Source: Anaerolineaceae bacterium (lineage in GTDB: Bacteria > Chloroflexota > Anaerolineae > Anaerolineales > Anaerolineaceae). From it: 64,000 nt of DNA. Position 1 is the first letter of the stretch. Each line of letters opens with the position of its first letter. Positions 141 through 42,730 of the stretch are shown here, piece by piece. Made by a program: the position numbers and the translations under genes. The stretch spans positions 26,034-90,033 of the forward strand of contig JAFPZX010000021.1 in NCBI GenBank assembly GCA_017417055.1, written 5' to 3'. The notes under the pieces were generated by a model. It saw nothing but the letters and a program-made list of their open reading frames with translations. It made no database searches and was not told where the DNA came from.

Positions 141-227
141 CAGCCAGTGGTCAGTAGTCAGTGGTCAGTGGTCAGTGGTCAGTGGTCAGTGGTTACTCCT
201 CACTTCTTACTTCTTACTCCTTACTCC
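141..227. repeat. Two abutting heptamer tandem arrays
   Basis: Positions 144-193 repeat GTCAGTG about seven times. Positions 192-226 continue in the same 7-base phase with TACTCCT/TACTTCT units. On the minus strand the second array reads GAGTAAG and provides the stop codon (223-221) of the MutL-like gene. Confidence 0.9.
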
Positions 228-1972
228 CGCCATTCGCCTAATTCATTTTTCCAGCGTTCCAGCAGGTGAATCTGTGCTGTCCGGTCTTTTGGCATTTCAA
301 GCGTCTCTCCCCGCATATCAAACACCAGACCAAAACAGCCTGCTTTGAACCCGATGGACGTCCATGTCGGAATTCCCGGCAGTGTGACGGATTTGCTGAC
401 ATTGAACCAGTCTAATTCATAATAACGTCCATATTCCAGCGGGATCCGTTTGATCCCTCCCTGGATGATGTCCACCTTTTCGATATTTCCGCCTTCATCC
501 CGCAGCGATACGCTGAACACACGTTTCCCTTCTTTGACAGCAGAATGTGGGGTGATCACGCGTCCCAGGTTCAGGAACATAGCCGGTGAAGTGACCTGCG
601 CTGCCAGTTCGCGGTTGACTCCAGCCAGGCCGCCTACCGCGGAAGCCAGGCCATTCATGTCCAGATAGTAATCATTCAGACCGAATGGATGCAGACTATT
701 CATCCCGATCCGCAGGGCATCGCCGGGGTCTTCTACATTCCGCAAAACGGATCCGCCCAGCAGAACCATACCCAATGTTCCATCGGTGAGTTGGGCTTTC
801 GCCGGATTTTGATCAATGGCGGCACGAATCAGGAACTGCGCTAATATCTGTTCAATTTCCGCCGAATAACTGTTAGCGGGGATCAATTCCGGATGGACGG
901 ATTTGTTCATGATGTAATCCGTCAGTTCACTTTCCTTCAGTTGAAAACTGATCCAGGGTAGAATCTCATTCACGGAGTATTTTTCCAATAATTCGGGTAG
1001 AGTCCGTCCAATCCCCCCGTCAAATTTGCTCATTTCCAGATCAAGATTTGCACCGAAAGCTGAAAGTGTGCGGTTGGCTCCGACTTCAATACCCAATACA
1101 GAATGGTTGGCACGGTTGATGCGGCTCAACAGACGGATGCAGCGTCCATAGGCGAAATCTCCGGAGATAGCGGCACATTTCGTCTCCCGCTGAAGCTGAG
1201 CGATTGCCGGATTTTTCTCTTTTCCAAAATGCAGCATGACCTTTTGGAAGGCTGTTGTCGGAGAAAGCCGGGCTTCTTGTGCCCCCATGATGTTGTCGGA
1301 GAAGGTGATATCCGCCATTTGATGGAAGACCCGTTCAAACTGAGCACGTGCTTCCGAGTTGCCCATGTATAGGATCGAAGGACGATTCTGTTCATCGATA
1401 CTCTTGCAGGCCATCAAAAGGATTTCTCCCAGCCGGTAGAGCGCATGTTCCGCACCTTTTTCTGTCCCGCCGCTGACCAGAACAATATCCGGATCAGAGG
1501 CAATCAGGGTGCCGATGTTGTCGGTTAGTGATTTTCCATCCATTGCGCATATAGAGGCAGAAGCTGTCAGACCATTTTTCCGCAGCAGATTTTCCATTGC
1601 TTTTATTGAGGTATCATTCGTGAGTCCCATCAGAACCACGCGGGGCATTTCACCACCGCTCCAGGTGAGTACGACCTGATCAGCTCCGATCATGCCAAGC
1701 TTTTGAGGAATGACGATTTTACCGGTATCATCCAGAAAATGCCGTTCCAACGCGGATTCCAGTTTTTGAACAGCACCGGAAATGGATTGGTATTCAACTT
1801 CTCCGCTGTCAGAATAAACGGTCCGGTTTGAGGCTGTACCGGTAAACTGGTAACGTCCGTTTTCCCGTTCAAACAGGCTTACACGCGTGTTGACCGTACC
1901 GATATCGATCGTTAACACGATATCGACAGTTTCCTCATTTGTTTGGAGCGGTTTTTCCTGTTTTTTTGCCAT
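221..1972 (-). CDS. MutL-like ASKHA ATPase (glutamate mutase L family)
   Basis: 583-residue protein of the MutL family, whose best-known members accompany adenosylcobalamin-dependent glutamate mutase and are thought to act as ATP-driven reactivation or chaperone factors. Visible motifs fit the ASKHA fold: phosphate-1 loop TIDIGTVNTRVSLFE (residues 21-35), VLVSGGTEKG near 165-173, a second phosphate loop IEVGANRTLSAF near 295-306, and an adenosine-type loop GMVLLGGSVLRN near 401-412. No mutase subunit (mutE/mutS) is nearby; instead it follows zinc-ribbon and multipass membrane proteins in one minus-strand operon, so its partner here is probably different. The last codons and stop lie in a heptamer repeat array. 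Family assignment is fairly secure, function is not. Confidence 0.75.
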   Translation of the reverse strand: MAKKQEKPLQTNEETVDIVLTIDIGTVNTRVSLFERENGRYQFTGTASNRTVYSDSGEVEYQSISGAVQKLESALERHFLDDTGKIVIPQKLGMIGADQVVLTWSGGEMPRVVLMGLTNDTSIKAMENLLRKNGLTASASICAMDGKSLTDNIGTLIASDPDIVLVSGGTEKGAEHALYRLGEILLMACKSIDEQNRPSILYMGNSEARAQFERVFHQMADITFSDNIMGAQEARLSPTTAFQKVMLHFGKEKNPAIAQLQRETKCAAISGDFAYGRCIRLLSRINRANHSVLGIEVGANRTLSAFGANLDLEMSKFDGGIGRTLPELLEKYSVNEILPWISFQLKESELTDYIMNKSVHPELIPANSYSAEIEQILAQFLIRAAIDQNPAKAQLTDGTLGMVLLGGSVLRNVEDPGDALRIGMNSLHPFGLNDYYLDMNGLASAVGGLAGVNRELAAQVTSPAMFLNLGRVITPHSAVKEGKRVFSVSLRDEGGNIEKVDIIQGGIKRIPLEYGRYYELDWFNVSKSVTLPGIPTWTSIGFKAGCFGLVFDMRGETLEMPKDRTAQIHLLERWKNELGEWRE

Positions 1973-1986
1973 TTGATTGATGTCCT

Positions 1987-2667: not shown

Positions 2668-5044
2668 TATTCTCCGTCTCCTTTTCGGATTCATTTTCAG
2701 AAAATTGCTGTGTTTTTTCAGCGGCGTTCTTTTTATTGTATTTTGGTTCCGTTTTCATGGTCTTGCTGATGATGCCGCCCAGCCATGCAAGCGGAACGAG
2801 TGCGCATAAATACCAGACTGCAGCCTGTGTCCGCCCGGCAAAGTGGACGGTTTCACCGTAATGGTTCAGATCTATGTCCCGGCTGAGGAAGCTGGAGACC
2901 ATCCCTGATTGGAGATATGGTTTCAAAACAGGTTCCAGCTGTCCCGGTCCCATCACGTGCAGCAGACGGTTGCCGCCTGTTACGGAGATCTGTTCGGCCC
3001 AGCTGCGGACGGATGTGATTTCGGATGTAAGCAGCCATACATTTTCCGGGATGGTTCCATTTGCGAGTCTGCTGCGGATGGAAATCACTCCTGAAGGCCA
3101 CCAGCCTGCAAATTCAACTACTCCATCATATTGGCTGAGGATTTGCTGTGTTTCGGGCATGGCGGCAGGATTGAGCACGGAAAGGTAGACATGGTCTGCG
3201 TGTCCTGTCAGCGATTGGATCACCATTTCAGCGGCGGTGTGCATTTCTGAGCTGTAAGCAGGCGTGTAATCCATGACTACCAGCGCGTCTCCTGTATGAT
3301 TATCTGTATGTTGATAAAAATCCAGTGTTTCATCAGCGGCCGGAATCATTGGGATGTTCAGGTTGTCTGCAATATCGCTGACAAGCAGCAGGATGATACC
3401 GCAAAGCGCCAGAGCAAGCCACAAGATTCTTGCACCAAAGCTGATTTCCCGGTTGTTTTTTTCTTTGACCGGCTGAACATAATTCTCAGCCTGAATGATT
3501 TTCCCCAGAATGGATGAGATCATCCGCTGCTGGTAACTTGTACTGCCGGGATCATCCGGGATGCTGCTGCGTGAAAAGGTCCGAAAAGCCGGATCTTCCG
3601 GTGACTGCGGCAATGCCATATCCGCAGCGCCGAAGAGATCCCAGGGAATATCCTGATCATCGGGAAATTCACTGCTGTCGTACATATTCTGCCCGTTCAG
3701 ATCATCGGAATCAACATCCTTGCTGTCCAGTTCATCTTCATCGTCATTTTCAGGAAGAATCAGCGGATTGTCGATCACTTGCGGAATGTAAAAACCGTGA
3801 ACAGGTTTCAGAACCTCGGGAGTGCTGCTTTCCGAATCTGTTTTTTCTGCTTTATCCGGAACATTGCCGGTGGTGTCCGATGACTTTGAGTCATTCTTAT
3901 CCGGTTTTGCTGCCGGGCTTTTTTCAGGCTGCGGAGTACCTTCGACTTCATAGCCGATATTGCGGAGAATGCGGTCAAGCACCTCTGCGTTGGGGCCAGT
4001 ATTGTCTTCCGGTATGGTGATTTCAGAATAATCCGGTTCAGGTATTTCATTATCTTCCGGATGGTTCCCGGAATAAAACATTGTGCCGGAGCGGTTTTCA
4101 GCCTGTTCAGCCGGCGTCAGTGAACCGGAGCTGCTGTTCATGTCGTTCAGTAAATCAGAAATCAAACTGCCGCTTTCCGGTTTGTATTCATCGTAATGGA
4201 TATTTGAAGTTTGTGGATTTTCAGCTTTATCCGGTTCAGCTGTGCTGGATGATGCTGCAGCGAAAATTTCCTGTGCATCTATGACTTTTGTCGGTGATGC
4301 GCTGTTTTCCAATGCAGGGTCATCATATTCAGCGGATTTCAGCTCCTGTGTGTTTTCATCTTCTTCCACCAGCGGAGAATCCTGCTGCCACCAGAGCGGC
4401 AGCTGAGAGATTCCATCATCCTCATTTGCGCTGTTTTCTTCATCCGCGGGGTGGCGGTCATCCCATTTCCGTGCCGGCCGTTCGGTTTTGAAATCGTCAA
4501 GCAGGGAAACACTTGTGCCTTTATATTCGGCCGCAACAGCTTCGGGTTTTTTGTCTTCCCATTTCCGGGCAGGGCGCTGGATGGAAAAATCCGCTATGCC
4601 GGGAATGTTTTCTTCGAGAGTTTTCGGTGTATTTTCGTCCGGCTCAATGAGCGGCGGTTCGATCATACTTTGGAACATCGGCTGGTAAACCTGATCCTGT
4701 TTTTTCTGCTTTGGGGTCCGGAAGGTTTTATTGGGTGAAGAAGACTTGGATGAATCCGGTGTACCGAATAACCAATTGGTGTATGAATCAAAATCCATCG
4801 GTTTCTTTTCCGCGGGTTTCAATTTATCTTTGAGCCATTCGGGTACAGGACTGTCGAGATCGGGTTCATCATTTTGAATTGCTTGCGGAGCAGTTTCCAC
4901 CGGTTTTTCCGGTTCTGCCGGGTTTAGCTCATCCCGGAAGATTTCACTTGGCAGGGTCTTGAGGTTTGCCTTGCAGACCTGGCAGAATTCACTTCCTTCA
5001 GGGTTTTCGCTGCCGCAAATCGGACAAATGATGGTGTGATTCAT
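2660..5044 (-). CDS. Large acidic zinc-ribbon membrane protein
   Basis: 794 residues. An N-terminal zinc ribbon (C7, C10, C21, C24) is followed by about 500 residues of acidic, Ser/Pro/Asp-rich low-complexity sequence that contains a twice-repeated RPARKW(E/D)D(K/R)(K/H)P motif. One transmembrane helix lies near 540-560 (ARILWLALALCGIILLLVSD). An extracytoplasmic domain of about 180 residues follows, then a second helix near 740-760 and a short charged tail. The topology suggests a cytoplasmic zinc ribbon and linker anchored to the membrane with a small outer domain. It overlaps the genes on both sides (ATGA overlap at 5041-5044; 8 bases with the next gene), so the operon is tightly coupled. 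I do not recognise a named family. Confidence 0.75.
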   Translation of the reverse strand: MNHTIICPICGSENPEGSEFCQVCKANLKTLPSEIFRDELNPAEPEKPVETAPQAIQNDEPDLDSPVPEWLKDKLKPAEKKPMDFDSYTNWLFGTPDSSKSSSPNKTFRTPKQKKQDQVYQPMFQSMIEPPLIEPDENTPKTLEENIPGIADFSIQRPARKWEDKKPEAVAAEYKGTSVSLLDDFKTERPARKWDDRHPADEENSANEDDGISQLPLWWQQDSPLVEEDENTQELKSAEYDDPALENSASPTKVIDAQEIFAAASSSTAEPDKAENPQTSNIHYDEYKPESGSLISDLLNDMNSSSGSLTPAEQAENRSGTMFYSGNHPEDNEIPEPDYSEITIPEDNTGPNAEVLDRILRNIGYEVEGTPQPEKSPAAKPDKNDSKSSDTTGNVPDKAEKTDSESSTPEVLKPVHGFYIPQVIDNPLILPENDDEDELDSKDVDSDDLNGQNMYDSSEFPDDQDIPWDLFGAADMALPQSPEDPAFRTFSRSSIPDDPGSTSYQQRMISSILGKIIQAENYVQPVKEKNNREISFGARILWLALALCGIILLLVSDIADNLNIPMIPAADETLDFYQHTDNHTGDALVVMDYTPAYSSEMHTAAEMVIQSLTGHADHVYLSVLNPAAMPETQQILSQYDGVVEFAGWWPSGVISIRSRLANGTIPENVWLLTSEITSVRSWAEQISVTGGNRLLHVMGPGQLEPVLKPYLQSGMVSSFLSRDIDLNHYGETVHFAGRTQAAVWYLCALVPLAWLGGIISKTMKTEPKYNKKNAAEKTQQFSENESEKETENND

Positions 5045-5670
5045 TTATCCTCCTTGGAAGGCAGTTTTCCGGAAAACAGAAAACGCAGACCGGTAATTGC
5101 CCCACCGATAGCGATACCCAGCAGCAGACCCATGATGCAGCCCTGTGGGATGCTTTCGATCCAGCTGATGAGGTTGTTCATTGTATCGGATGTGTTGAAT
5201 ACTTTTGGGAGCCCGCAGTAAATCGCGAGAAAGACGATCATACCGACAAAAAAAGCTGCTTTCATTGCGGAAGGTGTCTGTGATGGCAGACGGTAGACCG
5301 CATAAATCAGACTGAGACATACAAGACCGGCTAAGGCGGATTCGAGCGTCTTCTGAACGAAAAATATTACTCTGTTCAGTTCGGTGGATTCGGGCCCTTT
5401 GATGAGTCCGAGCAGCAGAACTGCAATGAATACACCGAAACCGATGATGCGGATTACACGCATTCCGCCGTCGTCGCCTGCTTTTCTTATCTGTAAAATA
5501 GCGGTATCGGCGATGGTGAAGAAAAGAATCGCCGCGAACAGACGTTCCGCCCACAGGAAGGTTTCTGAACTCACTGTCTGGAGAAATGAATTGTCAACAA
5601 AAAAGGATGCGAAAAGAAATCCTCCGACGAGGATCGAAAGAATCGCAAACAGGGTTCGTGACCTTTTCAT
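5041..5670 (-). CDS. Multipass membrane protein, unknown
   Basis: 209 residues from ATG 5670, chosen over a TTG at 5688 because GGGAGAGAG sits directly before it as a ribosome-binding site. Six or so hydrophobic helices are visible (LFAILSILVGGFLFASFF, ERLFAAILFFTIADTAIL, VIRIIGFGVFIAVLLLGLI, LESALAGLVCLSLIYAVY, MKAAFFVGMIVFLAIYCGL, IMGLLLGIAIGGAITGLRF). Its stop overlaps the start of the zinc-ribbon protein by an ATGA. No catalytic motif is seen; it is likely a structural membrane partner in the operon. Confidence 0.75.
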   Translation of the reverse strand: MKRSRTLFAILSILVGGFLFASFFVDNSFLQTVSSETFLWAERLFAAILFFTIADTAILQIRKAGDDGGMRVIRIIGFGVFIAVLLLGLIKGPESTELNRVIFFVQKTLESALAGLVCLSLIYAVYRLPSQTPSAMKAAFFVGMIVFLAIYCGLPKVFNTSDTMNNLISWIESIPQGCIMGLLLGIAIGGAITGLRFLFSGKLPSKEDK

Positions 5671-5701: not shown

Positions 5702-6445
5702 TCAAATTCCTGTCAAACCGACACCGGCAAATATAACAATTGCTGCAATAATTAACAGGCGCATGACATCCATCGCCAAAAGGGAAGAATTTGTTTTTTC
5801 TGTATGGTCTAATGAATCTGGAATTTCCGTGTATTGTTCTCCGACAAAAACCGCGTCTGCATTGACCGCTGCAACAGCCTGTGATATCAAATCATCACCA
5901 CCTACACACAGCACTTCACCTTTGCTGCAGAGTGTATCATTGAGCGCGGTGGACGGGCCGAATGAGCCGATGGAAAGATGCAGCGCGCTTGGTTCTTTTT
6001 CCAGTGACGCGGCATTGCCTGCTGTGTGTTCGAATGGTGCGGCGGCGGAAAACACAGCGCAGTTGGGATCGTAAGAATTTCCGTAGTTGGCCGCTTCCAT
6101 GCCTGAACGGACAGCGTCTTTTGCAATATTGACAGGGAATCCGCCCGGAGCGGTGATTGCCCAGGGCTCGTCGGCAAAGGCCATTTGTGCGGAAACGGTT
6201 TCCGCGGTTTTGGCTGCCGCCAGAACCGCGCCGCTGCTGAGCGCGGCTTCTCCGCCGTCATTGATGTCAAGATGGATAGGGGCTGATTCTTCAAGGCTTT
6301 TTGCGATTTGTGAACGGATCAGACGGTCTTTGGAGCGGGTGTATGCCCGGCTTGATAACCTTATCCTGTTCCCAATTAATCTGCTGATTATGTATATGAC
6401 TGCCATAATCAGGATAATAACCGCAGCTAATCTTGAAGTTTGCAT
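5702..6445 (-). CDS. Two-helix membrane protein, possibly DUF6754-like
   Basis: 247 residues with an N-terminal membrane helix (LAAVIILIMAVIYIISRLI), a cytoplasmic central domain rich in Ala and Gly, and a C-terminal helix (LLIIAAIVIFAGVGLTGI). The central domain has stretches such as LHLSIGSFGPSTAL and VLCVGGDDLISQAVAAVNADAVFVGEQYTEI that look like an alpha/beta ligand-binding fold. From memory it resembles DUF6754 proteins of Chloroflexota, but I cannot confirm this. It is the first gene of the six-gene minus-strand operon that runs down to the window edge. Confidence 0.65.
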   Translation of the reverse strand: MQTSRLAAVIILIMAVIYIISRLIGNRIRLSSRAYTRSKDRLIRSQIAKSLEESAPIHLDINDGGEAALSSGAVLAAAKTAETVSAQMAFADEPWAITAPGGFPVNIAKDAVRSGMEAANYGNSYDPNCAVFSAAAPFEHTAGNAASLEKEPSALHLSIGSFGPSTALNDTLCSKGEVLCVGGDDLISQAVAAVNADAVFVGEQYTEIPDSLDHTEKTNSSLLAMDVMRLLIIAAIVIFAGVGLTGI

Positions 6446-6795
6446 TTCAGCCTTCCTTAAAATTTCATATCCTTAAATAAATCTATTAAAGTATAGCATA
6501 CTTTCCGTGATTTGGTATGAAAATTGCATATATTAAATTTTTTTAATTTTACTTCTTTTTTATATTAAAAAATTATGAATACTAAATATACGTATCATTA
6601 ACAAATCGGGCGCTATATTTGTTTTAAGTAAGAAATAAGAATTGATGTGTTAGTGCTTCGATGAAAAATGATATTGGTAACGCAGGCTTGTCTTTGCTCG
6701 GGTGTTCAGTGATATTCCGAAATGTTATTATTAATTAAAAAAGGAGTGGAAGCGCTCGGATCTTATGCAGCTTCTCACTCCTAACGTCTAACGTC
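6446..6795. other. AT-rich intergenic region
   Basis: About 350 bases with no gene. It holds the palindrome at 6488-6504 near the operon start, an AT-rich stretch, and the heptamer array at its left-gene end (6772-6809). I see no RNA gene. Confidence 0.6.
6488..6504. promoter_or_regulatory. Palindrome overlapping a possible -10 box
   Basis: AAAGTAT-AGC-ATACTTT lies about 45 bases upstream of the first gene of the MutL operon. On the minus strand it contains TATACT (6495-6490), which could be the -10 element, so the palindrome may be an operator. No convincing -35 box is visible. Confidence 0.3.
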
Positions 6796-6809
6796 TTACT
6801 TCTTACTTT
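6772..6809. repeat. Heptamer tandem array at a gene 3' end
   Basis: Five to six units of 7 bases (TTCTCAC, TCCTAAC, GTCTAAC, GTCTTAC, TTCTTAC). Read on the minus strand it encodes the final residues SKK and the TAA stop of the PAP2 phosphatase gene. Confidence 0.85.
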
Positions 6810-7461
6810 CTGCTTTCCTGCTTGCGGCGTAGCGGTACCAGGCGATCAGCATGTCGCCGATAATCATGCCGCCGATGATGTCGGTGAGCCAGTGCACACC
6901 GGCGAGCATACGGGTGACGATCACGATAAATAGTACGATGAGGGAACAGGCTGTTGCGGCTGTTTTCAGTTTTTCATTCCTAATATAGATATTCCACTGG
7001 TCAATTGCGGAAACCATCACCACCCAGGCGATGACGGTATGCGTGGAGGGGTAGGATGATTCCAGACCCTTATCACGCAGGATCGGACGGTAATTGATGA
7101 TCAGGACCTTGTCAAACAGGAGATAAAGTGCCGCGGTGAGGATATAGAGCATGATCAATATCGACAGATTGCGGTCTACTTTTGACAGGGATTTCCGGTC
7201 GATCAGCTGTTTCAGGAAAAACAATCCAAACCCCGCGGCAGTCACAAAACATACAATTCCCGCGGCCGAGCTGATCTTGTAAAATGTATCATTTTGTCCG
7301 AATCGGGCAAAAAATTGGGTGTTGATGGTGGCAAAACCTAAATTGGTTCCCTGGACACCCACCGGCTGAACATCAACGGTTGCGACCAGGATCGTCGCAG
7401 CAATTGCAAGCACAGTCATGATGATAACTGTCTTCATGGTTTCTTTTGGAATTTGTTTCAT
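6796..7461 (-). CDS. PAP2-family membrane phosphatase
   Basis: 221-residue integral membrane acid phosphatase of the PAP2 type, which removes phosphate from lipid phosphates such as undecaprenyl or phosphatidyl phosphates at the outer face of the membrane. The three signature motifs are present: K118...R125-P126, P138-S-T-H141 (usually PSGH), and R184...H190...D194 in TRMLAGVHWLTD. Five or six hydrophobic helices surround them. The last three residues and the stop codon come from a heptamer repeat array. It appears monocistronic. Substrate cannot be read from the sequence. Confidence 0.85.
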   Translation of the reverse strand: MKQIPKETMKTVIIMTVLAIAATILVATVDVQPVGVQGTNLGFATINTQFFARFGQNDTFYKISSAAGIVCFVTAAGFGLFFLKQLIDRKSLSKVDRNLSILIMLYILTAALYLLFDKVLIINYRPILRDKGLESSYPSTHTVIAWVVMVSAIDQWNIYIRNEKLKTAATACSLIVLFIVIVTRMLAGVHWLTDIIGGMIIGDMLIAWYRYAASRKAESKK

Positions 7462-8971: not shown

Positions 8972-9718
8972 ATGCTGCTGGAAGCAAAAAACGTAAACAA
9001 AGGTTTTCGGAACCAGAGTATTCTGAAAGGGATCGATCTTTCCGTTGATACCGGCGAGGCAGCTGTGATCCTGGGTCCCTCCGGCGCCGGAAAGACGACA
9101 CTGCTGCGCTGTCTGAATTTCCTTGAGACGCCGGATGAGGGTGAATTGATCTTTAATGGCAAGACCTACCGGATGAACCGTATGTCACGGAAGGAGATCC
9201 GGGAATATCGTCTGCAGACAGCTTTTGTTTTTCAGAGTTTCAATTTGTTTCTGAACAAAACGTCACTGCAAAATGTCACCGAAGGCTTGATCATCGCCCG
9301 GGGAATGGACAAAACCACTGCCGAAAAAAAAGGCATGGATGCACTGGAACGTGTCGGACTTGCCTCTCATCGGGATTATTATCCCCATCAGCTTTCCGGC
9401 GGACAGCAGCAGCGGGTTGCGATTGCCCGTGCTTTGGCTGCAGATCCGAAAATTATATTCTTTGATGAGCCGACCAGCGCGCTGGATCCGGAACTGACCT
9501 ATGAAGTTCTTTCAGTGATGCGCTCTCTTGCGGACGATGGCATGACGATGCTGATCGTGACGCATGAAATCGAATTCGCCCGGACGGTTTCCAACCGCAT
9601 CATCTTTATGGAAAACGGTGTGGTGGTAGAATCGGGATTGACAAAAGATGTTTTTACCCATCCGCAAAAGGTACGTACTGCGGAATTCCTGAAAATTGAG
9701 TCAGGAGATAGGTTTTAG
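8972..9718 (+). CDS. Polar amino acid ABC transporter ATPase
   Basis: 248-residue nucleotide-binding subunit with Walker A GPSGAGKT (residues ~32-39), Q-loop FQSF, signature LSGGQQQR, Walker B IIFFDEPTSALDPE and the switch histidine in VTHEIEFA. It is of the GlnQ/HisP class and energises the permease encoded just upstream. The start has AAGGAGGC at good spacing, inside the end of the permease gene. The stop codon TAG (9716-9718) lies in the heptamer array AGGTTTTAGGTGTTAGG. Confidence 0.92.
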   Translation: MLLEAKNVNKGFRNQSILKGIDLSVDTGEAAVILGPSGAGKTTLLRCLNFLETPDEGELIFNGKTYRMNRMSRKEIREYRLQTAFVFQSFNLFLNKTSLQNVTEGLIIARGMDKTTAEKKGMDALERVGLASHRDYYPHQLSGGQQQRVAIARALAADPKIIFFDEPTSALDPELTYEVLSVMRSLADDGMTMLIVTHEIEFARTVSNRIIFMENGVVVESGLTKDVFTHPQKVRTAEFLKIESGDRF

Positions 9719-9746
9719 GTGTTAGGTTTCAGGTTTTAGGTTTTAG
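9711..9746. repeat. Heptamer tandem array GGTTTTA
   Basis: Five units of 7 bases (GGTTTTA, GGTGTTA, GGTTTCA, GGTTTTA, GGTTTTA). It starts within the last codons of the transporter ATPase gene and supplies its TAG stop. Confidence 0.9.
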
Positions 9747-10877: not shown

Positions 10878-12257
10878 TTAATCATCCGCTTTTTTGGATG
10901 TGGAAAACAGCGCTGAGATCCCGAGCCAGAGCATCAGCCGCAGCGCCAGCACCCCGCCGAACACATGCCGCCAGATGGAACGGACTTCGCCGAGATAAGC
11001 GATCGACATCATCAATCCGCCGCCAAGGAAGAGGAGCAGGAGTGTCCAAAAAGAACGGATATCCGCAGCTTCTCCGGATTTGACGGCTTTTACCGCCACC
11101 AAAATCAACAGTAGGAAATCAATCAGGATCACCGCAGATGAAAGCGGATGCATCAGGTTGCCGGGTTTTTCCGCCCAGTGCGGACGCTGCTGGTTGGACC
11201 CATAGAAAAACGGCTGGCGGTTTTCCTCAAAAAACGAATCCAGATTGTTATAAACCTGGAGCACGCTCCACAGCGGCATGGATAGCAGAAACCGCTGATA
11301 TGTCTGCAGACCAAAGCGGCGTACCCAGTGAATGAACTTTTCATTTTCGTATATATTGTTATACTCAGCCGACCCGGTGAGGGAAAGTACATCACCTTCT
11401 GTTGGCATTTCCCGGTCTGTGAAAAATTGAACCCGGGTCTCATAGGGGAAGACATTTTCCGTCATGTTGTTCAGCAGCGGCAGCAGCCAGCGTTCACTGA
11501 CGCGGAAGGTTCCCTGGTGAAAGAAAAATATTCCGACAAGCAGGAATCCGCTGAGAATCGCTGAAACCCGCTGCCCTTTGCGCTGGACCCAGTAAATGAT
11601 GCCGGTAACGATCAGAACCAGTGCTTCAACCGCGATGAAATAGGCGTTGGTGTCCCGGGTGAAGATCCAGAAAAACGAGACGACAGACAGACCTGCCGCA
11701 GCAAGCCAGGTGACGAGTCTGTCGCCTTTCCCGTCGGGGATAACCTTGAACAGCAGACCAATCATCAGGATAAAGAGGGATATGCTGAGCGATTCACTGC
11801 TCAGGATGCTGTCCCAGTCCGCGATTTGCGGTACAAATCCGCATCCAAGCACCAAAAACGCGGAAAGCGCTTTGGCAAACCAGCCATTGAATGAAGAGGT
11901 GATCAGTAAAGCCGCAGCTGACCAGCATAGGATGGAGATGACGGTCTGATTGCGGACGAGCGTCTCTGTTCTGGGCTGAACTGCCAGTCTTGATTCCGTG
12001 CCGAAATATGGTTCCGAGAGCTGTGTCAATTCGTGTTCAAGCGTTGGATTGCTGATTTTGATCAAAAGCGGATACGAAGGAGAACGCTGCTGTTCAAAAA
12101 ATTCGAGCGAAAACGGGTTTCCTTTTGCCGCGGCAAAATATGATTCTGTGTCCTGGACCGCGACAGAATCATTCATCGGTCCGTAACAGACGATGCGTCC
12201 GTATATGAAAATCAATACAAACAGGATCGGAAGCAGCCATTCCAAGATTTTTTTCAT
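10878..12257 (-). CDS. Polytopic membrane protein, GT-C-like
   Basis: 459 residues with about ten hydrophobic helices and a short N-terminal outer loop bearing an acidic motif (SVAVQDTESYFAAAKGNP) after helix 1, as in GT-C glycosyltransferases that use polyprenyl-phosphate sugars. A large hydrophilic region near residues 260-360 would lie outside the membrane. No family name is secure. It begins one base inside the stop of the YhfC-like gene (TAATG overlap), so the two are co-transcribed. The C-terminal residues KKADD are encoded by the end of a repeat element. Confidence 0.65.
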   Translation of the reverse strand: MKKILEWLLPILFVLIFIYGRIVCYGPMNDSVAVQDTESYFAAAKGNPFSLEFFEQQRSPSYPLLIKISNPTLEHELTQLSEPYFGTESRLAVQPRTETLVRNQTVISILCWSAAALLITSSFNGWFAKALSAFLVLGCGFVPQIADWDSILSSESLSISLFILMIGLLFKVIPDGKGDRLVTWLAAAGLSVVSFFWIFTRDTNAYFIAVEALVLIVTGIIYWVQRKGQRVSAILSGFLLVGIFFFHQGTFRVSERWLLPLLNNMTENVFPYETRVQFFTDREMPTEGDVLSLTGSAEYNNIYENEKFIHWVRRFGLQTYQRFLLSMPLWSVLQVYNNLDSFFEENRQPFFYGSNQQRPHWAEKPGNLMHPLSSAVILIDFLLLILVAVKAVKSGEAADIRSFWTLLLLFLGGGLMMSIAYLGEVRSIWRHVFGGVLALRLMLWLGISALFSTSKKADD

Positions 12258-18558: not shown

Positions 18559-18625
18559 GTCAAAGCGACCTGTTTTCATTGACTCATTCAACGGGAAATG
18601 GCCATTAATCAGCGTCTCCTTAAGT
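18553..18625. repeat. GAGTCAA hairpin repeat plus CTGATTA-type end
   Basis: TGAGTCAAAGCGACCTGTTT, then TCATTGACTCA, followed by ATTAATCAGCGTCTCCTTAA. It matches the element at 9766-9872. Its first TGA is the stop codon of the GGDEF/HD-GYP gene. Confidence 0.8.
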
Positions 18626-18678
18626 CTATTACATGCCGCGAAGCCGACACAGACGTGTCACAGGAAAGGAAATTTATC

Positions 18679-19161
18679 ATGGATTCTGAACAAAAGCATG
18701 AGATTTATGATTTACTGGTCCGTCAGGCGGAATCCCTGACGGAAGATGAACGTCTTCCCATTCCAAACTTGGCAAATACCGCTGCACTGCTGGGCGAATC
18801 ATTAGAGGAAATCAACTGGGCGGGGTATTACCTGATGGTTGAGGGTGCCCTGGTGCTCGGTCCGTTTTGGGGACGCCCTGCGTGTATCCGTATACCGGTT
18901 GGGAAAGGTGTCTGCGGAACGGCGGTGGCTGCTGACGCGGTGCAGTGCGTGCAGGATGTCCATGCGTTTCCGGGGCATATTGCCTGCGACAGCCGGTCCC
19001 GCTCAGAAATCGTCATTCCGCTCCATCATGAGGGCAAAGTGGTCGGCGTCCTCGACATTGACAGCCCCATCCCCGCCCGTTTTGATGAGATTGATGTGGC
19101 AGGCCTCACCCGCTTCGCGCAGGTTCTGGAACGAAACTGTGACTGGAAAAGAAGGAGTTAG
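18679..19161 (+). CDS. msrC: Free methionine-(R)-sulfoxide reductase, GAF type
   Basis: 160 residues from ATG 18679 with GGAAAGGAAA upstream; an earlier ATG at 18598 lies within a repeat element. A single GAF domain with the family motifs NWAGYYLM, GPFWGRPACIRIPVGKGVCGTA and HIACDSRSRSEIVIPL. The three redox cysteines C69, C79 and C103 keep the 10 and 24 residue spacing of known fRMsr enzymes, which reduce free methionine-R-sulfoxide with thioredoxin. It serves oxidative-damage repair in the cytoplasm. The last residues and TAG stop fall in a long heptamer array. Confidence 0.88.
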   Translation: MDSEQKHEIYDLLVRQAESLTEDERLPIPNLANTAALLGESLEEINWAGYYLMVEGALVLGPFWGRPACIRIPVGKGVCGTAVAADAVQCVQDVHAFPGHIACDSRSRSEIVIPLHHEGKVVGVLDIDSPIPARFDEIDVAGLTRFAQVLERNCDWKRRS

Positions 19162-19240
19162 GAATTAGGAGTGAGAAATGAGGAATGAAAAGTAAGGAGT
19201 AAGGAGTAAGAAGTGACTCCTAACTCCTAACTCCTAACTT
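19154..19240. repeat. Heptamer tandem array, switches strand midway
   Basis: About nine units of the GGAGTTA/GGAGTAA type, then CTCCTAA units in inverted sense from 19217, so the array can fold back on itself. It begins inside the last codons of the methionine sulfoxide reductase gene and ends shortly before the antitoxin ribosome site. Confidence 0.9.
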
Positions 19241-19257: not shown

Positions 19258-19542
19258 ATGATCAATACGGAAGTGATGACAAATAATACGGTTTTGAAAG
19301 ATACAATTGATATGCTCTTTGATTTGAGTGTTGATGATTTGCTGGAGATACAGTCATTTATCAAAGGGAATCGTTCCCGAAATATGAAAGATGCCGCGGC
19401 GGATATAGCTGAATTCTATAAACCGCTCACCGAGGCTGAACTGATTGAAAGAATCGATAAAGGTATTGCAGAAGCAGATGCGGGTATGTTTATTGATTCT
19501 GAAACTATGGAAAAGGAGCTTATTGCGGAGTTTGGACTGTGA
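19258..19542 (+). CDS. Type II antitoxin-like protein
   Basis: 94 residues with GGAGGAAG just before the ATG. The sequence is acidic and helical (LSVDDLLEIQSFIKG, LTEAELIERIDKGIAEADAG), with a C-terminal region typical of RelB/Phd-type antitoxins that wrap the toxin. A clear DNA-binding fold is not evident in the N-terminus. Its TGA stop overlaps the GTG start of the RelE/ParE-like gene, the standard arrangement of a toxin-antitoxin operon. It is probably the neutralising partner and autoregulator. Confidence 0.75.
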   Translation: MINTEVMTNNTVLKDTIDMLFDLSVDDLLEIQSFIKGNRSRNMKDAAADIAEFYKPLTEAELIERIDKGIAEADAGMFIDSETMEKELIAEFGL

Positions 19543-19856
19543 AGAAGTATAAAGTTGTCGTTACTCCTGAAGCATATGCAAATTTCAGAAGGATTCTTGC
19601 GTATCTTTCCCGAAATAAGAAGAATAAACAAGCCGCGGGAAATGTTATGAGTGATTATCAGAAAACAAAAAAGATTCTATCTGATATTGCAGGAAGTATT
19701 CGTGAACCGGAGAGCGAAGCGCTGAAATCCAGGAATCTGAAGCGCATGAATTTCGGAAACCATGATTATTTCCTTCTGTTCCGTATCGATGGTGACAAAG
19801 CCATTGTTACGAACATCTTCCACGCATCTGAAGACTTTGAATTAAAATTATTTTGA
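19539..19856 (+). CDS. RelE/ParE-family toxin
   Basis: 105 residues starting at a GTG that overlaps the antitoxin stop. It begins KKYKVVVTPEAYANFRRILA and ends with YFLLFRIDGDKAIVTNIFHASEDF, the beta-strand pattern of the RelE/ParE fold. RelE members cleave mRNA on the ribosome, ParE members poison gyrase; the sequence does not decide which. It lies just upstream of tRNA-Gln and between heptamer arrays. The family call is good, activity is inferred. Confidence 0.8.
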   Translation: MKKYKVVVTPEAYANFRRILAYLSRNKKNKQAAGNVMSDYQKTKKILSDIAGSIREPESEALKSRNLKRMNFGNHDYFLLFRIDGDKAIVTNIFHASEDFELKLF

Positions 19857-19910
19857 ACCACTGACTGCTTAGTCATTAACTCCTGTCCACTGCCCACTGT
19901 CCACTGACAG
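19857..19910. repeat. Heptamer tandem array GTCCACT
   Basis: Degenerate period-7 units, clearest as GTCCACT, GCCCACT, GTCCACT. The array starts directly at the stop codon of the toxin gene. Confidence 0.75.
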
Positions 19911-20149: not shown

Positions 20150-20197
20150 AATTATAAAAAGGGATTGTTACATCAGCAGCAATCCCTTTTTATAATT
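20150..20197. terminator. Bidirectional terminator, 18-bp perfect inverted repeat
   Basis: The arms 20150-20167 and 20180-20197 are perfect inverted repeats of 18 bases (GGGATTG/CAATCCC plus A/T flanks) around a 12-base loop. A runs on one side and T runs on the other make it work on both strands, between tRNA-Gln and the convergent phosphoesterase gene. Confidence 0.85.
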
Positions 20198-20230: not shown

Positions 20231-20318
20231 CATTCATCATTCATCATTTCTTATCGATCATCCATCATACGTCATCCATCATCCATCATCCATCTTTCTT
20301 CTTACTTCTTCTTCCCTA
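20231..20318. repeat. Heptamer tandem array ATCCATC/TTACTTC
   Basis: About twelve units of 7 bases, first ATTCATC and ATCCATC, then TTACTTC. On the minus strand it begins right at the TAG stop of the metallophosphoesterase gene. Confidence 0.9.
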
Positions 20319-24882: not shown

Positions 24883-25056
24883 AGGAGTGAGGAGTTAGAA
24901 GTTAGGAGTGAGAAGTTAGGAGTGAGAAGTGTGGAGTGAGGAGTTAGGAGTGTGGAGTGTGGAGTGTGGAGTGAGAAGTGTGGAGTGAGAAGTGAGGAGT
25001 GTAAAGGCATTGACCACTCCTCACTCCTAATTCCTAATTCCTCACTCCTTACTTCT
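24883..25056. repeat. Longest heptamer tandem array (about 24 units)
   Basis: Seventeen consecutive units of GGAGTGA/GAAGTTA/GGAGTGT, then an inverted block of CTCACTC/CTAATTC units. The right end lies inside the aspA gene, encoding its last residues (RSKE) and TGA stop on the minus strand. The two halves are largely complementary and could fold into a long hairpin. Confidence 0.92.
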
Positions 25057-26475
25057 CCCTTCCAGCAGTTCTTCACCGGAAATGCCGGGTTTGGTCATGT
25101 TCCAGGGGTCGAGGATGATGTCCAGTTCCTTTTCTGTCAGCAGTTTTTCCTGCAGGATCAGCTCGCGGACCGGCTGACCGGTCTTGATGGCTTTCTTGGC
25201 GATATCGGCTGCGTGCTGATACCCAATGTGCGGGACCAGCGTGGTGATAATGCCGACGCTGTTGTGGACCATGTCGTAACAGTGTTCTTTGTTGGCAGTG
25301 ATGCCGTTGATGCAGTTGACGATGAGCGTATGAATGGAGTTCGTCAGCACTTCCATTGAGGAGAAAAGGCAGTAGAACGTGATGGGTTCAAACGCGTTCA
25401 ATTCCATCTGCCCGGCTTCTGCCGCCATGGAAACGGTCACATCGTTGCCGATGCACAGGAACGCAGCCTGGTTAACGACTTCAGGGATAACAGGGTTGAC
25501 CTTTCCGGGCATGATGGAAGAGCCGTTTTGTTTGGCGGGCAGGTTGATTTCGCCGAAGCCGCAGCGGGGACCGGAAGAAAGCAGCCGTAGGTCGTTGCAC
25601 ATCTTGGAAAGGGCGACCGCGCAGGTGCGGACAGCACCGGAAACGGCGGGGAAGCAGTCGATGTGTTGTGTACCGTCAATCGTATCTTCTGCCTGATACA
25701 GCTCCATCCCGGTCACTTTGCTCAGTTCACGGGCGACGATCTGATAGAAATAGGTATCCGCGTTGATGCCGGTTCCGATAGCGGTTCCGCCCATGTTGAT
25801 GTAATGCAGATCGTCCAGGACGTGACCGATATTTACGGTCGTGCGTTTCACGGCGGTGGCATAGGCTTTGAATTCCTGCCCGAGAAGGATCGGCACCGCA
25901 TCCTGCAGCTGCGTGCGGCCCATTTTGATGACATCATTAAATTCATCGGCTTTGCGCATCAGCGCGTCATAAAGTGCGTTCAGTTCTTTGATGAGGTTGT
26001 TGGCAAATTTGATGATGGTGATTTTCCCGGCGGTAGGAATGACGTCATTGGTAGATTGTCCGTAATTGACATGGTCGTTTGGGTGAACAATGCTATAGTC
26101 GCCTTTTTGTCCGCCGAGGATCTCAATGGCGCGGTTCGCGATCACTTCATTAGCGTTCATGTTCATTGAAGTTCCCGCGCTGCCCTGGACCGGGTCGACG
26201 ATGAATTCCTTGTGCAGTTTGCCTTCCAGAATTTCATCGCAGGCCTGTTCGATAGCCATAGCTACATTTTCCGGCAGTTGTCCCGCTTTCAAATTTGCAA
26301 TAGCGCAGGCTTTTTTGACCTGAGCCAGGCTGTTGATCATCTCCGGCCGCATGGTGTAGCCGGTGATCATAAAGTTTTCATGAGCGCGTAAAGATTGCAC
26401 CCCGTAATACGCATCGATCGGAATGTTCATCTCTCCGATTGAGTCTCGTTCGACTCTTGTCTTTTTTTCGGACAT
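25042..26475 (-). CDS. aspA: Aspartate ammonia-lyase
   Basis: 477 residues, the usual aspartase length. It deaminates L-aspartate to fumarate and ammonia in the cytoplasm. Conserved lyase regions are present: GSAGTSMNMNANEVIANRA, HVNYGQSTNDVIPTA, RTQLQDAVP and the signature loop [12 protein letters not shown] with the catalytic Ser. These favour aspartase over fumarase (for example MNANEVIANRAIE and HPNDHVNYGQS). The next gene upstream encodes a fumarase, so the pair can turn aspartate into malate. The 3' end is built from a heptamer array. Confidence 0.9.
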   Translation of the reverse strand: MSEKKTRVERDSIGEMNIPIDAYYGVQSLRAHENFMITGYTMRPEMINSLAQVKKACAIANLKAGQLPENVAMAIEQACDEILEGKLHKEFIVDPVQGSAGTSMNMNANEVIANRAIEILGGQKGDYSIVHPNDHVNYGQSTNDVIPTAGKITIIKFANNLIKELNALYDALMRKADEFNDVIKMGRTQLQDAVPILLGQEFKAYATAVKRTTVNIGHVLDDLHYINMGGTAIGTGINADTYFYQIVARELSKVTGMELYQAEDTIDGTQHIDCFPAVSGAVRTCAVALSKMCNDLRLLSSGPRCGFGEINLPAKQNGSSIMPGKVNPVIPEVVNQAAFLCIGNDVTVSMAAEAGQMELNAFEPITFYCLFSSMEVLTNSIHTLIVNCINGITANKEHCYDMVHNSVGIITTLVPHIGYQHAADIAKKAIKTGQPVRELILQEKLLTEKELDIILDPWNMTKPGISGEELLEGRSKE

Positions 26476-26615: not shown

Positions 26616-27980
26616 TTATATCATTTCTTCCGGATGGAAGATCTCATCAAATTTCTCCGCTGTCAGAAAACCCAGTTTTACACAGGCATCTTTGAGCGAA
26701 ATATCTTCCTTGAAAGCCAGTTTGGCGGTTTTTGCCGCGTTCTCATATCCAATATAGGGATTGAGTGCTGTGACGAGCATCAGCGAATGATACAGGTTAT
26801 AGCGCATCTTTTCCTTATTGGCGGTTATGCCGGAGACGCAGTGAATGTTGAAGGATTCGATCCCTTCCGCCAACAGACGAACCGACTGCAGGAAGTTGTA
26901 AATGAGCACGGGCATAAAAACGTTGAGTTCAAAATTACCCTGAGAGGCAGCAAAGGCAACTGCCGTGTCATTGGCGATCACCTGAACGGCGACCATCGTC
27001 ATGGATTCGCACTGTGTCGGGTTCACTTTTCCGGGCATGATGGAGCTGCCGGGTTCATTGGCCGGAATGTTGATCTCGCCCAAGCCATCTCGGGGACCGC
27101 TGGCCAGCCAGCGGATATCATTTGCGATTTTCATAAGGTTGGCGGCAAGCCCTTTCAGCGCTCCGTGCATGAACACCAGTTCATCTTTTGATGTGAGTGC
27201 GTGGAATTTGTTCGGCGCGGTTTGAAAGCTGTACCCCGTGAGCTCGGAGACCGCTTTGGCAGCTTCCTCCGCGAAGCCTTTCGGTGCGTTCAGTCCGGTT
27301 CCTACTGCGGTGCCTCCCAGCGCCAGACGGGAAAGGCCCGGCAGCGCGGTTTTGATTTGTTCCAGGCTGATTTCCAGCATGCTGCGCCATCCGCTGATCT
27401 CCTGTGAAAAGGTGATCGGTGTGGCATCCTGCAGGTGGGTGCGTCCGGATTTGACGATACCCTGGTTTTCTCTTTCCAGCCTTTTGAATGTTTTGATGAG
27501 GGATTCAATAGACGGGATCAGCTTTTGACGGATCTCGAAAACAGCCGCGATGTGCATGGCCGTTGGAAATGTGTCATTGGAACTTTGAGATTTGTTCACA
27601 TCATCATTCGGATGCAGCAGATGCTTTCCGGCAATGGCGTTGCCCCGATTGGCAATCACTTCATTGACGTTCATATTGGATTGGGTACCGGAACCGGTCT
27701 GCCAGACTACCAGCGGAAAGTTGTCGTCTAATTTGCCGGCAAGAATTTCATCCGCGGCTGCGCTGATGGCATTCAGTTTTTCTTCATCCAGCTTGCCGAG
27801 GCGGAAATTGGCGATTGCGGCAGCCTTTTTGAGAAAGGCAAATGCGGTTATGATTTCCTTCGGCATTTTTTCCGTACCGATCCGGAAATTCTGATAACTG
27901 CGCTGGGTTTGCGCTCCCCAGTATTTTTCAGCAGGAACCTGTATTTCTCCCATTGAGTCATGTTCTGTTCTGTATTCCAT
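26616..27980 (-). CDS. fumC: Fumarate hydratase, class II
   Basis: 454 residues from ATG 27980 ([20 protein letters not shown]), preferred over a start 66 bases upstream that lies in a repeat array; GGACGGGG precedes it. It interconverts fumarate and malate without an iron-sulfur cluster. Typical class II motifs: [55 protein letters not shown] and [15 protein letters not shown]. The SQSSND and TQCE variants separate it from aspartase. It lies in tandem with aspA on the minus strand with 140 bases between. Confidence 0.92.
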
Positions 27981-28012
27981 TTTCCCCGTCCTATTTTTCG
28001 TAATGAAACATC

Positions 28013-28070
28013 GGATATTTGGCATGAGGCATATATCATGCGGCATACGTCATGTGTCATATGTCGTAAA
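28013..28070. repeat. Heptamer tandem array CATACGT/CATGTGT
   Basis: About eight degenerate units of 7 bases (CATGAGG, CATATAT, CATGCGG, CATACGT, CATGTGT, CATATGT). It lies in the short gap upstream of fumC. Confidence 0.75.
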
Positions 28071-39172: not shown

Positions 39173-39237
39173 TGTCATCAGCCATCATCAGGAATCTGTC
39201 ATATATCTTACGTCATTCGTCATACGTCTTACGTCAA
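39173..39237. repeat. Heptamer tandem array CGTCATA
   Basis: About eight degenerate 7-base units such as CGTCATT, CGTCATA, CGTCTTA. It lies between the EAL gene and the VanZ-like gene and is not at a stop codon. Confidence 0.75.
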
Positions 39238-40396: not shown

Positions 40397-40620
40397 GGAA
40401 AATGAGCCTGTTTCCACTGCTTCGTCATTCAGTGAGTTGAGGACAGTTCAGGTGTACATTGAATTGAAAAGTGATGATACAATTAGGATAAGAATATAGC
40501 GAAGGGGATGATTCGGAAACCGGCTGCTCATCGCGGTGCTGTGTTTTGCACCAGAGAAGCGGCAGCAAACAGGAAGACCTTTTATGCAGCGTTTTTGAGT
40601 TGTTCCTATGGAGGTTAATC

Positions 40621-42654
40621 ATGCATTGCACAAAACAAGTTTTGAACGATATGCTCTGGGTGGGGGCTGATGACCGCAGACTTACCTGTTTTGAAGGCGT
40701 TTACGGGGTCCCGAATGGCGTGTCGTATAATTCCTATCTTTTGCTTGACGAAAAAACAGTCCTTTTTGATACCGTTGACAAAGCCGTCGCGCACACATTC
40801 TTTGACAATGTTGCCTACGGACTGAACGGCAGAAAACTTGACTATCTCGTCATTCATCACATGGAACCGGATCATGCGGCCACCATCGAAGACCTGATCT
40901 ACCGCTATCCGGAAGCCACCATCGTCTGCAACGCCAAGATCAAGGACATGCTGGCAAATTACTTTGACTATGATATGAGCGGAAAGCTCCACATCGTCAA
41001 AGAGGGCGACACACTCAGCACGGGAAAACATACACTGACCTTTGTGATGGCTCCGATGGTGCACTGGCCGGAAGTTATGATGTCCTATGACCTGACCGAC
41101 AAGGTCTTGTTCTCCGCGGATGCCTTTGGTGCTTTCGGTGCACTGAATGGACATATCTTCGCGGACGAAGTGGACTTTATGCACGATTGGCTGGATGAGG
41201 CCCGCCGCTATTATACCAATATCGTCGGGAAGTACGGTCCGCAGGTGCAGGCTGTTCTCAAGAAAGCTGCCGCATTGGAAATCAACTATGTGTGCCCGCT
41301 GCACGGCTTTGTTTGGCGCAAGCACTTCGGTGATTTCCTCGAAAAATACAACCTCTGGTCCACATATACACCGGAGGTCAAGGGTGTCTGTCTGGCTTAT
41401 GCCTCGGTTTATGGTCACACCGAGAACATGGCGAATATCCTGGCGGGCAAGCTGGTTGACCGCGGGATCCCGGTGGAGATGTTCGATACATCTGTGATCC
41501 CGGCAAGTTTTATCGTTTCGAGCGCTTTCCGCAATTCCCATCTGGTATTCGCGGCTACAACCTATAATGCCGGTGTTTTCGTCACCATGGAAAACCTGCT
41601 GAACGACATCGTTGCGCATAGTCTGAAGAACCGCAAGGTGGCTTTGCTGGAGAATGGTTCCTGGGGTCCGATGAGCGGCAAGATCATGAAGGAGATGCTC
41701 TCCAAGCTGCCGGGTACCGAGTTCATCGCTGATACCATCACCATCAAGTCTTCCCCGAAGGCGGCCACACTGGATCAGCTGGATGCCATGGCGGATGCCA
41801 TCGCGCTGGATATCAATCCGCATCTGTATGATGTGAAGGAAGCTGTTGCTGAAGGAGCTGCTGCCGCGGAAGCTGCATATGTGACCAAGGCTGTCGCTTC
41901 TGTTGACCCGACCGCGTTCTTCAAATTCACCTACGGTCTGGAGATCGCCACGACCCGGGTGGATGGCAGGGATTACGGCTGCATCATCAACTCCGCCGGA
42001 CAGGCTGCCGACGGGGACCCGAAGACGGTCACCATCTCCGTCATCAACAAGAACCATACAGCCGATATGATCAAAGCTTCCGGAAAGTTCAACGTTTCCG
42101 TGCTGACGGAAGACGCGCCGTTCTCCCTGTTCCAGCACTTCGGTTTCCAGTCCGGACGGGATGTGGACAAGTTCGCCGATGTGCCTTACGATGACCGGCT
42201 GGAGAATGGGATCCGCTATATCCCGACCTATACCAATGCGGTCTTTGGCTGTGAGGTGATCCAGTCTGTAGACCTGGGCAAGTCGACGCTCTTTATCGCG
42301 CACGTCACGGAGTCCAAGGTGCTTTCCGATGCGCCTTCCGCGACCTATGCTTACTATCACGCGCACATCAAGCCGAAGAAGGCTCCTGTGACCGAACAGA
42401 AGGAAGGCTGGCGCTGCACGATCTGCGGTTACTTCTATGAAGGGGCTGAGATGCCGGATGATTATGTATGCCCGCTGTGCAAGCATGGCAAGGATGCCTT
42501 CGAGTATGTCCCGGCGGTGAAGGTGGAAAAGAAGAAGGGCTTTATCTGCAAGATCTGCGGTTACTTTGAAGAATTTGACGGTCCGGAACTCCCCGCGGAT
42601 TATCAGTGCCCCATCTGCAAGCACGGCCGCGATGACATGGAACCGGCGGAACAG
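40621..42654 (+). CDS. Flavodiiron protein with flavin reductase and two rubredoxin domains
   Basis: 677 residues (stop TAG at 42655-42657) from ATG 40621 with GGAGG at good spacing. Order: beta-lactamase-like diiron domain with H80-x-E82-x-D84-H85, H148, D167 and H228; flavodoxin domain from about 258 (ASVYGHTENMANILA); flavin-reductase-like domain about 425-590 (FKFTYGLEIATTRVDGRDYGCIINS); then two tandem rubredoxins, each with CxxCG...CPxCKHG (about 600-677). It should reduce O2 to water, or NO to N2O, drawing electrons through its own rubredoxins, protecting an anaerobe. One polypeptide carries reductase, carrier and oxidase modules. The stop is followed at once by a heptamer array. Confidence 0.92.
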
Positions 42655-42660
42655 TAGTTC

Positions 42661-42730
42661 GTCAGTGGCCAGTGGTCAATAGGCATTAGGCAATTGGCAA
42701 TAGGCAATAGAAAGTGGCCGGTTGTCGATC
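42661..42730. repeat. Heptamer tandem array GTCAGTG/GGCAATA
   Basis: About ten units of 7 bases (GTCAGTG, GCCAGTG, GTCAATA, GGCATTA, GGCAATT, GGCAATA). It begins four bases after the flavodiiron stop codon. The first units match those at 144-193. Confidence 0.88.

Follow-up and report, generated by a model that had tools for sequence, protein, structure and literature searches.

The short tandemly repeated repetitive (STRR) sequences of heterocystous cyanobacteria are short tandem heptanucleotides, which are defined by particular words and used in strain typing; polarity is not known to belong to their definition. The present analysis concerns tandem arrays of 7-nt period in a 64,000-nt stretch of DNA (the window) from an Anaerolineaceae bacterium (Chloroflexota; assembly GCA_017417055.1, contig JAFPZX010000021.1, positions 26,034 to 90,033) and in the remainder of its genome, a 4.41-Mb draft of 200 contigs (G000, with the window as part of contig C103). 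Two described systems come closest. Heptamers of the type GGGAATC and GGGGA(C/T)T occur in two Xanthomonas genomes and one Nostoc genome; G-quadruplexes were raised for them, the function was left open, and a 2007 idea was cited by which the contact size of the polymerase favors slippage by 7 nt (Rehm et al., 2015, PMC4692102). TAACTGA direct repeats are known from Beggiatoaceae, some cyanobacteria, and Bacteroidetes (MacGregor, 2015, PMC4679880).

The arrays described here share their geometry with the Xanthomonas and Nostoc heptamers, which likewise have a period of 7, are intergenic, and in some cases overlap stop codons; there, too, the richness in G falls on the coding strand in the 50 nt after stops and on the non-coding strand before starts, convergent pairs stand in close proximity in the two Xanthomonas genomes, and closely related species differ in the length and sequence of the repeats (Rehm et al., 2015, PMC4692102). 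The position at gene ends, which the original prediction for the window had regarded as unusual, therefore has precedents in the stop-overlapping coding-strand heptamers of these genera. On the other hand, the Xanthomonas and Nostoc repeats consist of one or two fixed, quadruplex-capable words with G runs and mostly lie between the same genes in two species, whereas in this genome 37 words were found, no array could form a canonical quadruplex, and 0 of 10 genes with an array at the stop had a called array in common with the relative. The TAACTGA repeats resemble the present arrays in being mostly intergenic, in occurring alongside other heptamers in Microcystis and some Bacteroidetes, and in that two Cyanothece strains differ slightly, mostly in 7-nt steps; their mostly forward orientation before starts in the orange Guaymas genome and reverse orientation after one Bacteroidetes stop fit the outward rule given below, while orientations in a Microcystis sample are mixed (MacGregor, 2015, PMC4679880). 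Unlike the arrays studied here, those of the orange Guaymas 'Maribeggiatoa' use a single word, lie mostly upstream of starts, and were proposed to act in translational control (MacGregor, 2015, PMC4679880). Two bacterial groups thus already show the geometry with a single kind of G-rich repeat; in the present genome, many words obey it.

Period-7 arrays are strongly and specifically over-represented in this genome. The scan compared every base with the one k positions further along, scored the matches at lags k from 4 to 24, and covered 832 kb of chosen long contigs, or 19% of the genome, as one set of 464 kb (the window and 400 kb of other contigs) and a further 368 kb. In the first set, lag 7 yielded 45 arrays, and lags 4-6, 8-11, 13, 15-17, 19, 20, and 22 yielded none; the other non-zero counts were 22 and 18 at lags 14 and 21, which are expected as harmonics of 7, as well as four at lag 12, three at lag 24, and one each at lags 18 and 23. 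One shuffled copy of the same 464 kb gave no array at any lag. The further 368 kb contained 34 arrays at lag 7, five at lag 12, and one each at lags 8, 13, and 15. Pooled over the 832 kb, 79 arrays at lag 7 compare with 0 or 1 at each of lags 4-6, 8-11, and 13. The array load is 95 per Mb here, and 49 and 31 per Mb in the partly covered same-genus relatives G306 and G305, respectively.

These arrays form a polarized system that is independent of the word repeated. Each array was read outward from the nearest gene boundary if that boundary lay within 60 nt, which drops intragenic and more distant arrays and those with equal G and C (21 of 79 in this genome, namely 17 more than 60 nt away, 3 inside genes, and 1 with G equal to C; 13 of 31 in the relatives). 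Genes were called with our own dicodon model (631 genes in the 832 kb of G000 and 527 in the relatives) and, in loci of other phyla, as simple long open reading frames. The outward reading was G-rich in 159 of the 185 counted arrays, comprising 50 of 58 in this genome, 17 of 18 in two relatives, and 92 of 109 in 80 loci of other phyla (cyanobacteria, 59/67; all others, 33/42). The rule holds at both kinds of boundary: 36 of 42 arrays at stops and 14 of 16 at starts are G-rich outward in this genome, as are 4 of 5 at starts in the relatives and 27 of 32 in the other-phyla loci. Within 30 nt of a stop, the coding strand is the G-rich one for 34 of 35 arrays of this genome. In the loci of other phyla, arrays built from words other than AGGAGTN also read G-rich outward, in 42 of 48 cases. 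A background bias in composition after stops was rejected as the source, as array-free boundaries are nearly unbiased there (G-C bias 0.04, vs. 0.21 with arrays); in the 20 nt next to starts, boundaries with arrays and those without them alike have a C-rich outward strand (-0.10 and -0.11).

A fixed order accompanies this polarity. Among neighboring arrays no more than 150 nt apart, taken over all sets, a G-rich array is followed by a C-rich one in 64 pairs and the reverse order is found once, next to 14 G-G pairs, 12 C-C pairs, and 4 with an undecided arm. This genome contributes 19 G-C, 0 C-G, 7 G-G, and 7 C-C pairs, and C-before-G order was absent from all 25 of its multi-array intergenic regions; the loci of other phyla contribute 41 G-C pairs, 28 of them cyanobacterial. 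Even where both arms are nearer the same gene, 16 G-C pairs stand against 1 C-G pair, as would be expected if the junction can fall anywhere. Neighboring arrays of the same type are in register in 9 of 28 cases vs. 4 expected, a weakly coherent phase.

The words themselves are diverse. The 79 arrays have 37 consensus words, some of these words being variants of one another. AGGAGTN is the commonest; others include AAATCAG, AGGTTTT, AGTAGTT, AGTGGTC, and ACGTATG. The arrays nevertheless share a register on the G-rich strand, T-N-A-G-R-(A/T)-R, with a log-likelihood of -5.94 vs. -7.31 for column-permuted arrays. Words change along a single array while the 7-nt step and the register hold, and the identity between units drops from 0.82 for adjacent units to 0.72 for those six steps apart. 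Of the words described elsewhere, tandem GGGAATC, GGGGATT, and GGGGACT do not occur in the 832 kb, and TAACTGA is present on the two strands as 53 single copies with no tandem pair.

With respect to genes, 70 of the 79 arrays have intergenic midpoints (49 in tandem, 12 in convergent, and 9 in divergent gene gaps), and the remaining 9 overlap genes or sit at the edge of a stretch; 3, a small number, are near tRNAs. Over 300 rounds of random intergenic placement with the same lengths, 9.4 arrays on average and 18 at most fell within 15 nt of a stop, compared with 32 observed, and a stop was overlapped by 16 arrays (random mean 5.5, maximum 12). The median distance to a stop is 43 nt, vs. 259 nt at random, while only 4 arrays lie within 15 nt of a start (random mean 9.9, minimum 3). 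The excess at gene 3' ends is therefore real, and the link between arrays and 3' ends proposed from the window, which a genome scan without such an excess was to have overturned, persists over the 832 kb. Arrays can also become protein, as indicated by two similar, paralogous proteins, P0001 (L018:9757-11034) and P0002 (L080:8328-9509), whose in-frame arrays (KSEIRNQKSEIG and similar) lack an in-frame stop and occupy the linker between the similar protein ends.

Arrays of this kind are scattered over the order and far beyond it. Four tandem copies of AGGAGTN, with at most two mismatches, occur in 20 of 301 genomes from the order, which represent 13 of 112 genera. An exact-match scan of one genome per species in 84,980 species found at least 119 stretches, of which 80 were examined as the loci of other phyla mentioned above; as these loci were chosen by that one word, their period spectrum is biased. 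By record titles, 46 of the 80 are cyanobacterial and 34 belong to other groups, including, among the matches listed, Bacteroidota, Bacillota, Proteobacteria, Planctomycetes, Verrucomicrobia, Acidobacteria, and Campylobacterota. Within the genus, G040 had no arrays in the 80 kb scanned. Its genome is 2.9 Mb, while the array-bearing genomes G000, G305, G306, and G253 are larger (4.2-4.8 Mb); this comparison of size (G040, G148, and G259 vs. the array-bearing genomes) relies on stretches or, for most of the genomes, on the AGGAGTN pattern alone.

Between relatives, arrays turn over and change by whole units. At one post-stop site, identified by its gene as open frames of 343 or more codons, three Okeania genomes carry an AGGAGTC array, an AATTAAT array, and two copies of GGCAACA, respectively. 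Two Microcystis genomes (compared at L127 and L280) are 97% identical, and the arrays compared between them, at three of the five array places of L127, all differ (3/3) by exactly 14 nt, i.e., by two units each and not by one. Other arrays of Okeania L181 lie in different surroundings: a dispersed element of about 200 bp (4324-4549), of which each genome has many copies, bears heptamer arrays at its two ends, and two insertions missing from relatives (5050-5190 and 5715-5880) each have an inverted pair resembling ATCATGT(C/T)CG, which encloses a GGCAGGA- or GAAGGAA-like repeat. The insertions with the inverted pair are perhaps a small mobile element.

Within the window (Table 1), Tandem Repeats Finder returned rows at or near all ten places at which period-7 arrays had been predicted, all of which lie in the first 43 kb, and the stricter lag-7 scan called nine arrays, none of them between 45000 and 64000. 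The array at 39211-39235 was called only at a looser threshold, the one at 19883-19906 had a Tandem Repeats Finder row but no lag-7 call, and the stretch at 28013, the weakest of the list, had no lag-7 call, with 48% match at lag 7 and a best lag of 14. Neither the array at 39211 nor the stretch at 28013 is at a gene 3' end. Pfam supports the names of the PAP2, GAF, ParE toxin, phosphoesterase, flavodiiron-type, MutL, ABC ATPase, and fumarase-type genes, and the aspartase, which was outside the Pfam scan, was named from its own sequence and matches. All five genes predicted to have their stop within an array do so (MutL-like, PAP2, ABC ATPase, GAF-domain, and aspartase), the GAF-domain gene having been taken for a methionine sulfoxide reductase. 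Of the three genes said to end within a few bases of an array, this applies to the phosphoesterase and flavodiiron-type genes and not to the ParE/RelE-like toxin gene, for which the distance is about 26 nt.

Table 1. Period-7 arrays of the window, with positions counted from its first nucleotide.
Feature	Position	Strand	Strict lag-7 call	Detection or arrangement	Relation to genes
CAGTGGT array (145-193) leading into TTACTCC array (193-227)	145..227	+	145-227	repeat finder, scan	TTACTCC part contains stop (221-223) of minus-strand MutL-like gene
AAGTAAG / ACGTTAG array (minus-strand sense)	6771..6808	-	6781-6808	repeat finder, scan	codes final residues and stop of PAP2 gene (6796-7461, -)
TAGGTTT array	9709..9746	+	9709-9746		overlaps stop of ABC-transporter ATPase gene (8972-9718, +)
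AAGGAGT array, G-rich arm of convergent pair	19152..19214	+	19191-19214	repeat finder	overlaps stop of GAF-domain gene (18598-19161, +)
ACTCCTA array, C-rich arm of pair	19216..19239	+	19216-19239	1 nt from G arm	
Short CTGTCCA array	19883..19906	+			about 26 nt past stop of ParE/RelE-like toxin gene (19539-19856, +)
CATCCAT / TCTTTCT array	20231..20314	+	20253-20310	repeat finder, scan	ends few nt from stop of phosphoesterase gene (20316-20987, -); G-rich on its coding strand
AGGAGTG array, 17 units, G-rich arm of convergent pair	24883..25001	+	24883-25001	repeat finder, scan	
CACTCCT array, C-rich arm of pair	25015..25057	+	25015-25053	partner of 24883..25001	on minus strand, codes last residues and stop of aspartase gene (25042-26475, -)
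Weak period-14/7 stretch	28023..28065	+			near 5' end of fumarase gene (26616-28046, -)
GTCATAC array between tandem genes	39198..39236	+			about 150 nt from upstream stop
CAGTGGC / CAATAGG array	42663..42710	+	42663-42710		begins 5 nt past stop of flavodiiron-type gene (40546-42657, +)

Palindromes of other kinds occur in the same regions. A terminator-like palindrome at 20150-20197 is separate from the array at 20231..20314. A second palindrome, GGGGACTGTCCC...GGGACTGTCCCC at 42740-42795, just past the flavodiiron array, was spotted by eye and is presumably of the kind found near transposases associated with repetitive extragenic palindromes (REP). A palindromic repeat about 65 bp in length, dispersed and distinct from the heptamer arrays (L013:10382-10446 and 11297-11361; L021:13878-13936), has dozens of matches, on both strands, in the relatives G305 and G306.

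The contribution of arrays to the ends of proteins was examined by comparing this genome with two same-genus relatives, which gave 126 orthologue pairs. Ten genes here have an array at the stop, and none of their matched relatives (0/10) has a called array; in one relative, an array is present that this genome lacks. The mean length of the unaligned C-terminal tail is 3.0 residues for genes with an array and 2.6 for the others, and the tails differ between partners in 5 of 10 pairs with an array vs. 29% of the 116 without. For instance, the aspartase ends in EGRSKE here and in EK in G305; a heptamer-like stretch at the G306 aspartase was seen by eye only, was not called by the scan, and is left out of the counts. 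The flavodiiron orthologue has identical final residues without a called array, and the other tails are within a few residues, the observation that the original prediction had named as evidence against arrays as gene ends. A stop followed by G was found in 18 of 30 genes with an array within 6 nt and in 127 of 601 other genes, as the TNAG register would give. Given these tails and a stop density equal to that of permuted words, the stop is lent by position and not by design.

That the arrays are three-frame stop devices, which exploit the fact that 7 is not a multiple of 3, was the earlier proposal for the window and is now very improbable. Stops are about twice as dense in arrays (0.67-0.75 per unit on the G-rich strand) as in array-free intergenic DNA (0.35 per 7 nt), the G-rich strand of arrays near stops has more of them than the other strand (0.75 vs. 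0.35), and 18 of 32 such arrays stop all three frames, while in 2 of 32 the G-rich strand has no stop at all. However, other arrays have the same density (0.67) as words whose seven columns were permuted (0.67), against 0.75 near stops, which amounts to no stops beyond word composition; all-frame stops are equally common away from stop codons (26/46), orthologues end normally without arrays, and the same polarity governs arrays at starts. The proposal for Xanthomonas and Nostoc, G-quadruplex elements, almost certainly does not apply to this genome: the geometry is the same as that of the published repeats, but 0 of 79 arrays fit canonical quadruplex rules, and a run of three G on either strand occurs in only 5 of 79. 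The many words and the lack of canonical potential remove this explanation here.

The outward rule could also result from selection acting on transcripts. Slippage might create arrays in either orientation, of which only those that are G-poor before starts and G-rich after stops are kept; in formal terms, the outward rule is the same as a sense strand rich in G after stops and in C before starts. AGGAG resembles the Shine-Dalgarno core, and arrays of this type just before a start could harm as false ribosome-binding sites. This account is a credible but doubtful one, as it fits less well with the rule for words other than AGGAGTN, with order being kept between divergent genes (3/3 multi-array regions) and in pairs near one boundary, and with the nearly unbiased array-free DNA after stops. 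It is improbable that the G-C pairs are RNA hairpins, with purines in the 5' arm and pyrimidines in the 3' arm, which serve to terminate transcription or to shield the 3' ends of mRNA, although whole units fold more stably than shuffles (mean z -1.9 for 26 units, 11 of them below -2, and -3.0 for 41 units, 22 below -2) and own arms pair somewhat better than swapped ones (p = 0.008 and 0.043). An alignment test found locus-specific complementarity in the loci of other phyla (p = 0.012) but not in the 19 pairs of this genome (p = 0.38), for which strictly co-evolving hairpins were rejected, with a weak arm-pairing effect remaining. Many arrays have no partner arm, Rfam gave no match at arrays, and in the stretch scanned for terminator-like sites (window 18.5-28.5 kb), 0 of 11 were in arrays and their number did not exceed that in shuffles. 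Rho was present in 20 of 20 genomes tested, which speaks against hairpins and rejects Rho absence as a cause. It is more doubtful still that small mobile elements carry the arrays as their terminal inverted repeats or as cargo. Arrays in Okeania do occur in insertions missing from relatives and inside a dispersed multi-copy element; against this, several G and C arms are 1-20 nt apart and leave no room for the core of an element, words vary from site to site, and three words occupy one site in three Okeania genomes.

The tentative reading preferred here, with a probability of about 35%, is that the arrays are non-coding filler, which changes length by whole 7-nt steps, is tolerated from a stop to the next start, and is made by polarized 7-nt slippage on both sides of a gap. 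During error-prone synthesis, the 3' end would slip back by 7 nt repeatedly and copy itself, so that words drift while the step stays constant. The G-rich strand would be the extended one, from both sides of an intergenic break or gap, and the two extended ends would then be joined; extension from both sides would leave a G-array, a junction, and a C-array on either strand, with independent words in the arms. Selection would purge arrays running into genes, with survivors halting at the stop codon and sometimes replacing the last few codons, thereby lending a new stop by chance.

Several observations weigh against the slippage reading. The outward rule is broken by 26 of the 185 counted arrays, and Bacillota, the weakest group, follow it in only 4 of 7. 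Neither a gradient of purity along the G-rich strand (p = 0.74 here; 0.38, 0.84, and 0.10 in the other sets) nor an asymmetry of changes between adjacent units was found, which leaves directional growth unsupported. The complementarity of an arm to its own partner weakly exceeds that to other arms (mean rank 0.34 and 0.39), where independent growth predicts no such preference, and some Okeania arrays lie within larger insertions. A search for Ku found it in none of 44 genomes, whether or not they bear arrays, and the control search recovered it in 1 of 14 known genomes; Ku-dependent end joining is therefore unlikely in this order and was rejected. A reverse-transcriptase domain was matched in 7 of 12 genomes, with none in the array-bearing G306 and G253 and one in the array-poor G040, a pattern inconsistent with array presence; this link was likewise rejected, and no candidate enzyme emerges. 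In addition, the choice of 7 is unexplained by slippage.

In the papers found, heptamers were reported word by word (TAACTGA, GGGAATC, GGGGAYT), with separate possible roles, and a rule independent of the word was not found in the titles and abstract openings of the papers listed for heptamer repeats, cyanobacterial STRR, and Chloroflexi. The suspected kinship with the heptamer repeats of cyanobacteria is supported, and the same geometry is seen in 59 of 67 cyanobacterial arrays. Since this geometry is obeyed by 37 words here, by cyanobacteria, and by 33 of 42 arrays of other groups, the data point to a shared process that is independent of the word. It is conceivable, if unlikely, that a general bacterial process has left the arrays as scars, by lengthening both 3' ends at an intergenic break or gap through self-copying 7-nt slippage that favors the G-rich strand and then joining them without Ku. 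If true, this would amount to a telomere-like addition to DNA ends inside chromosomes, across many phyla.

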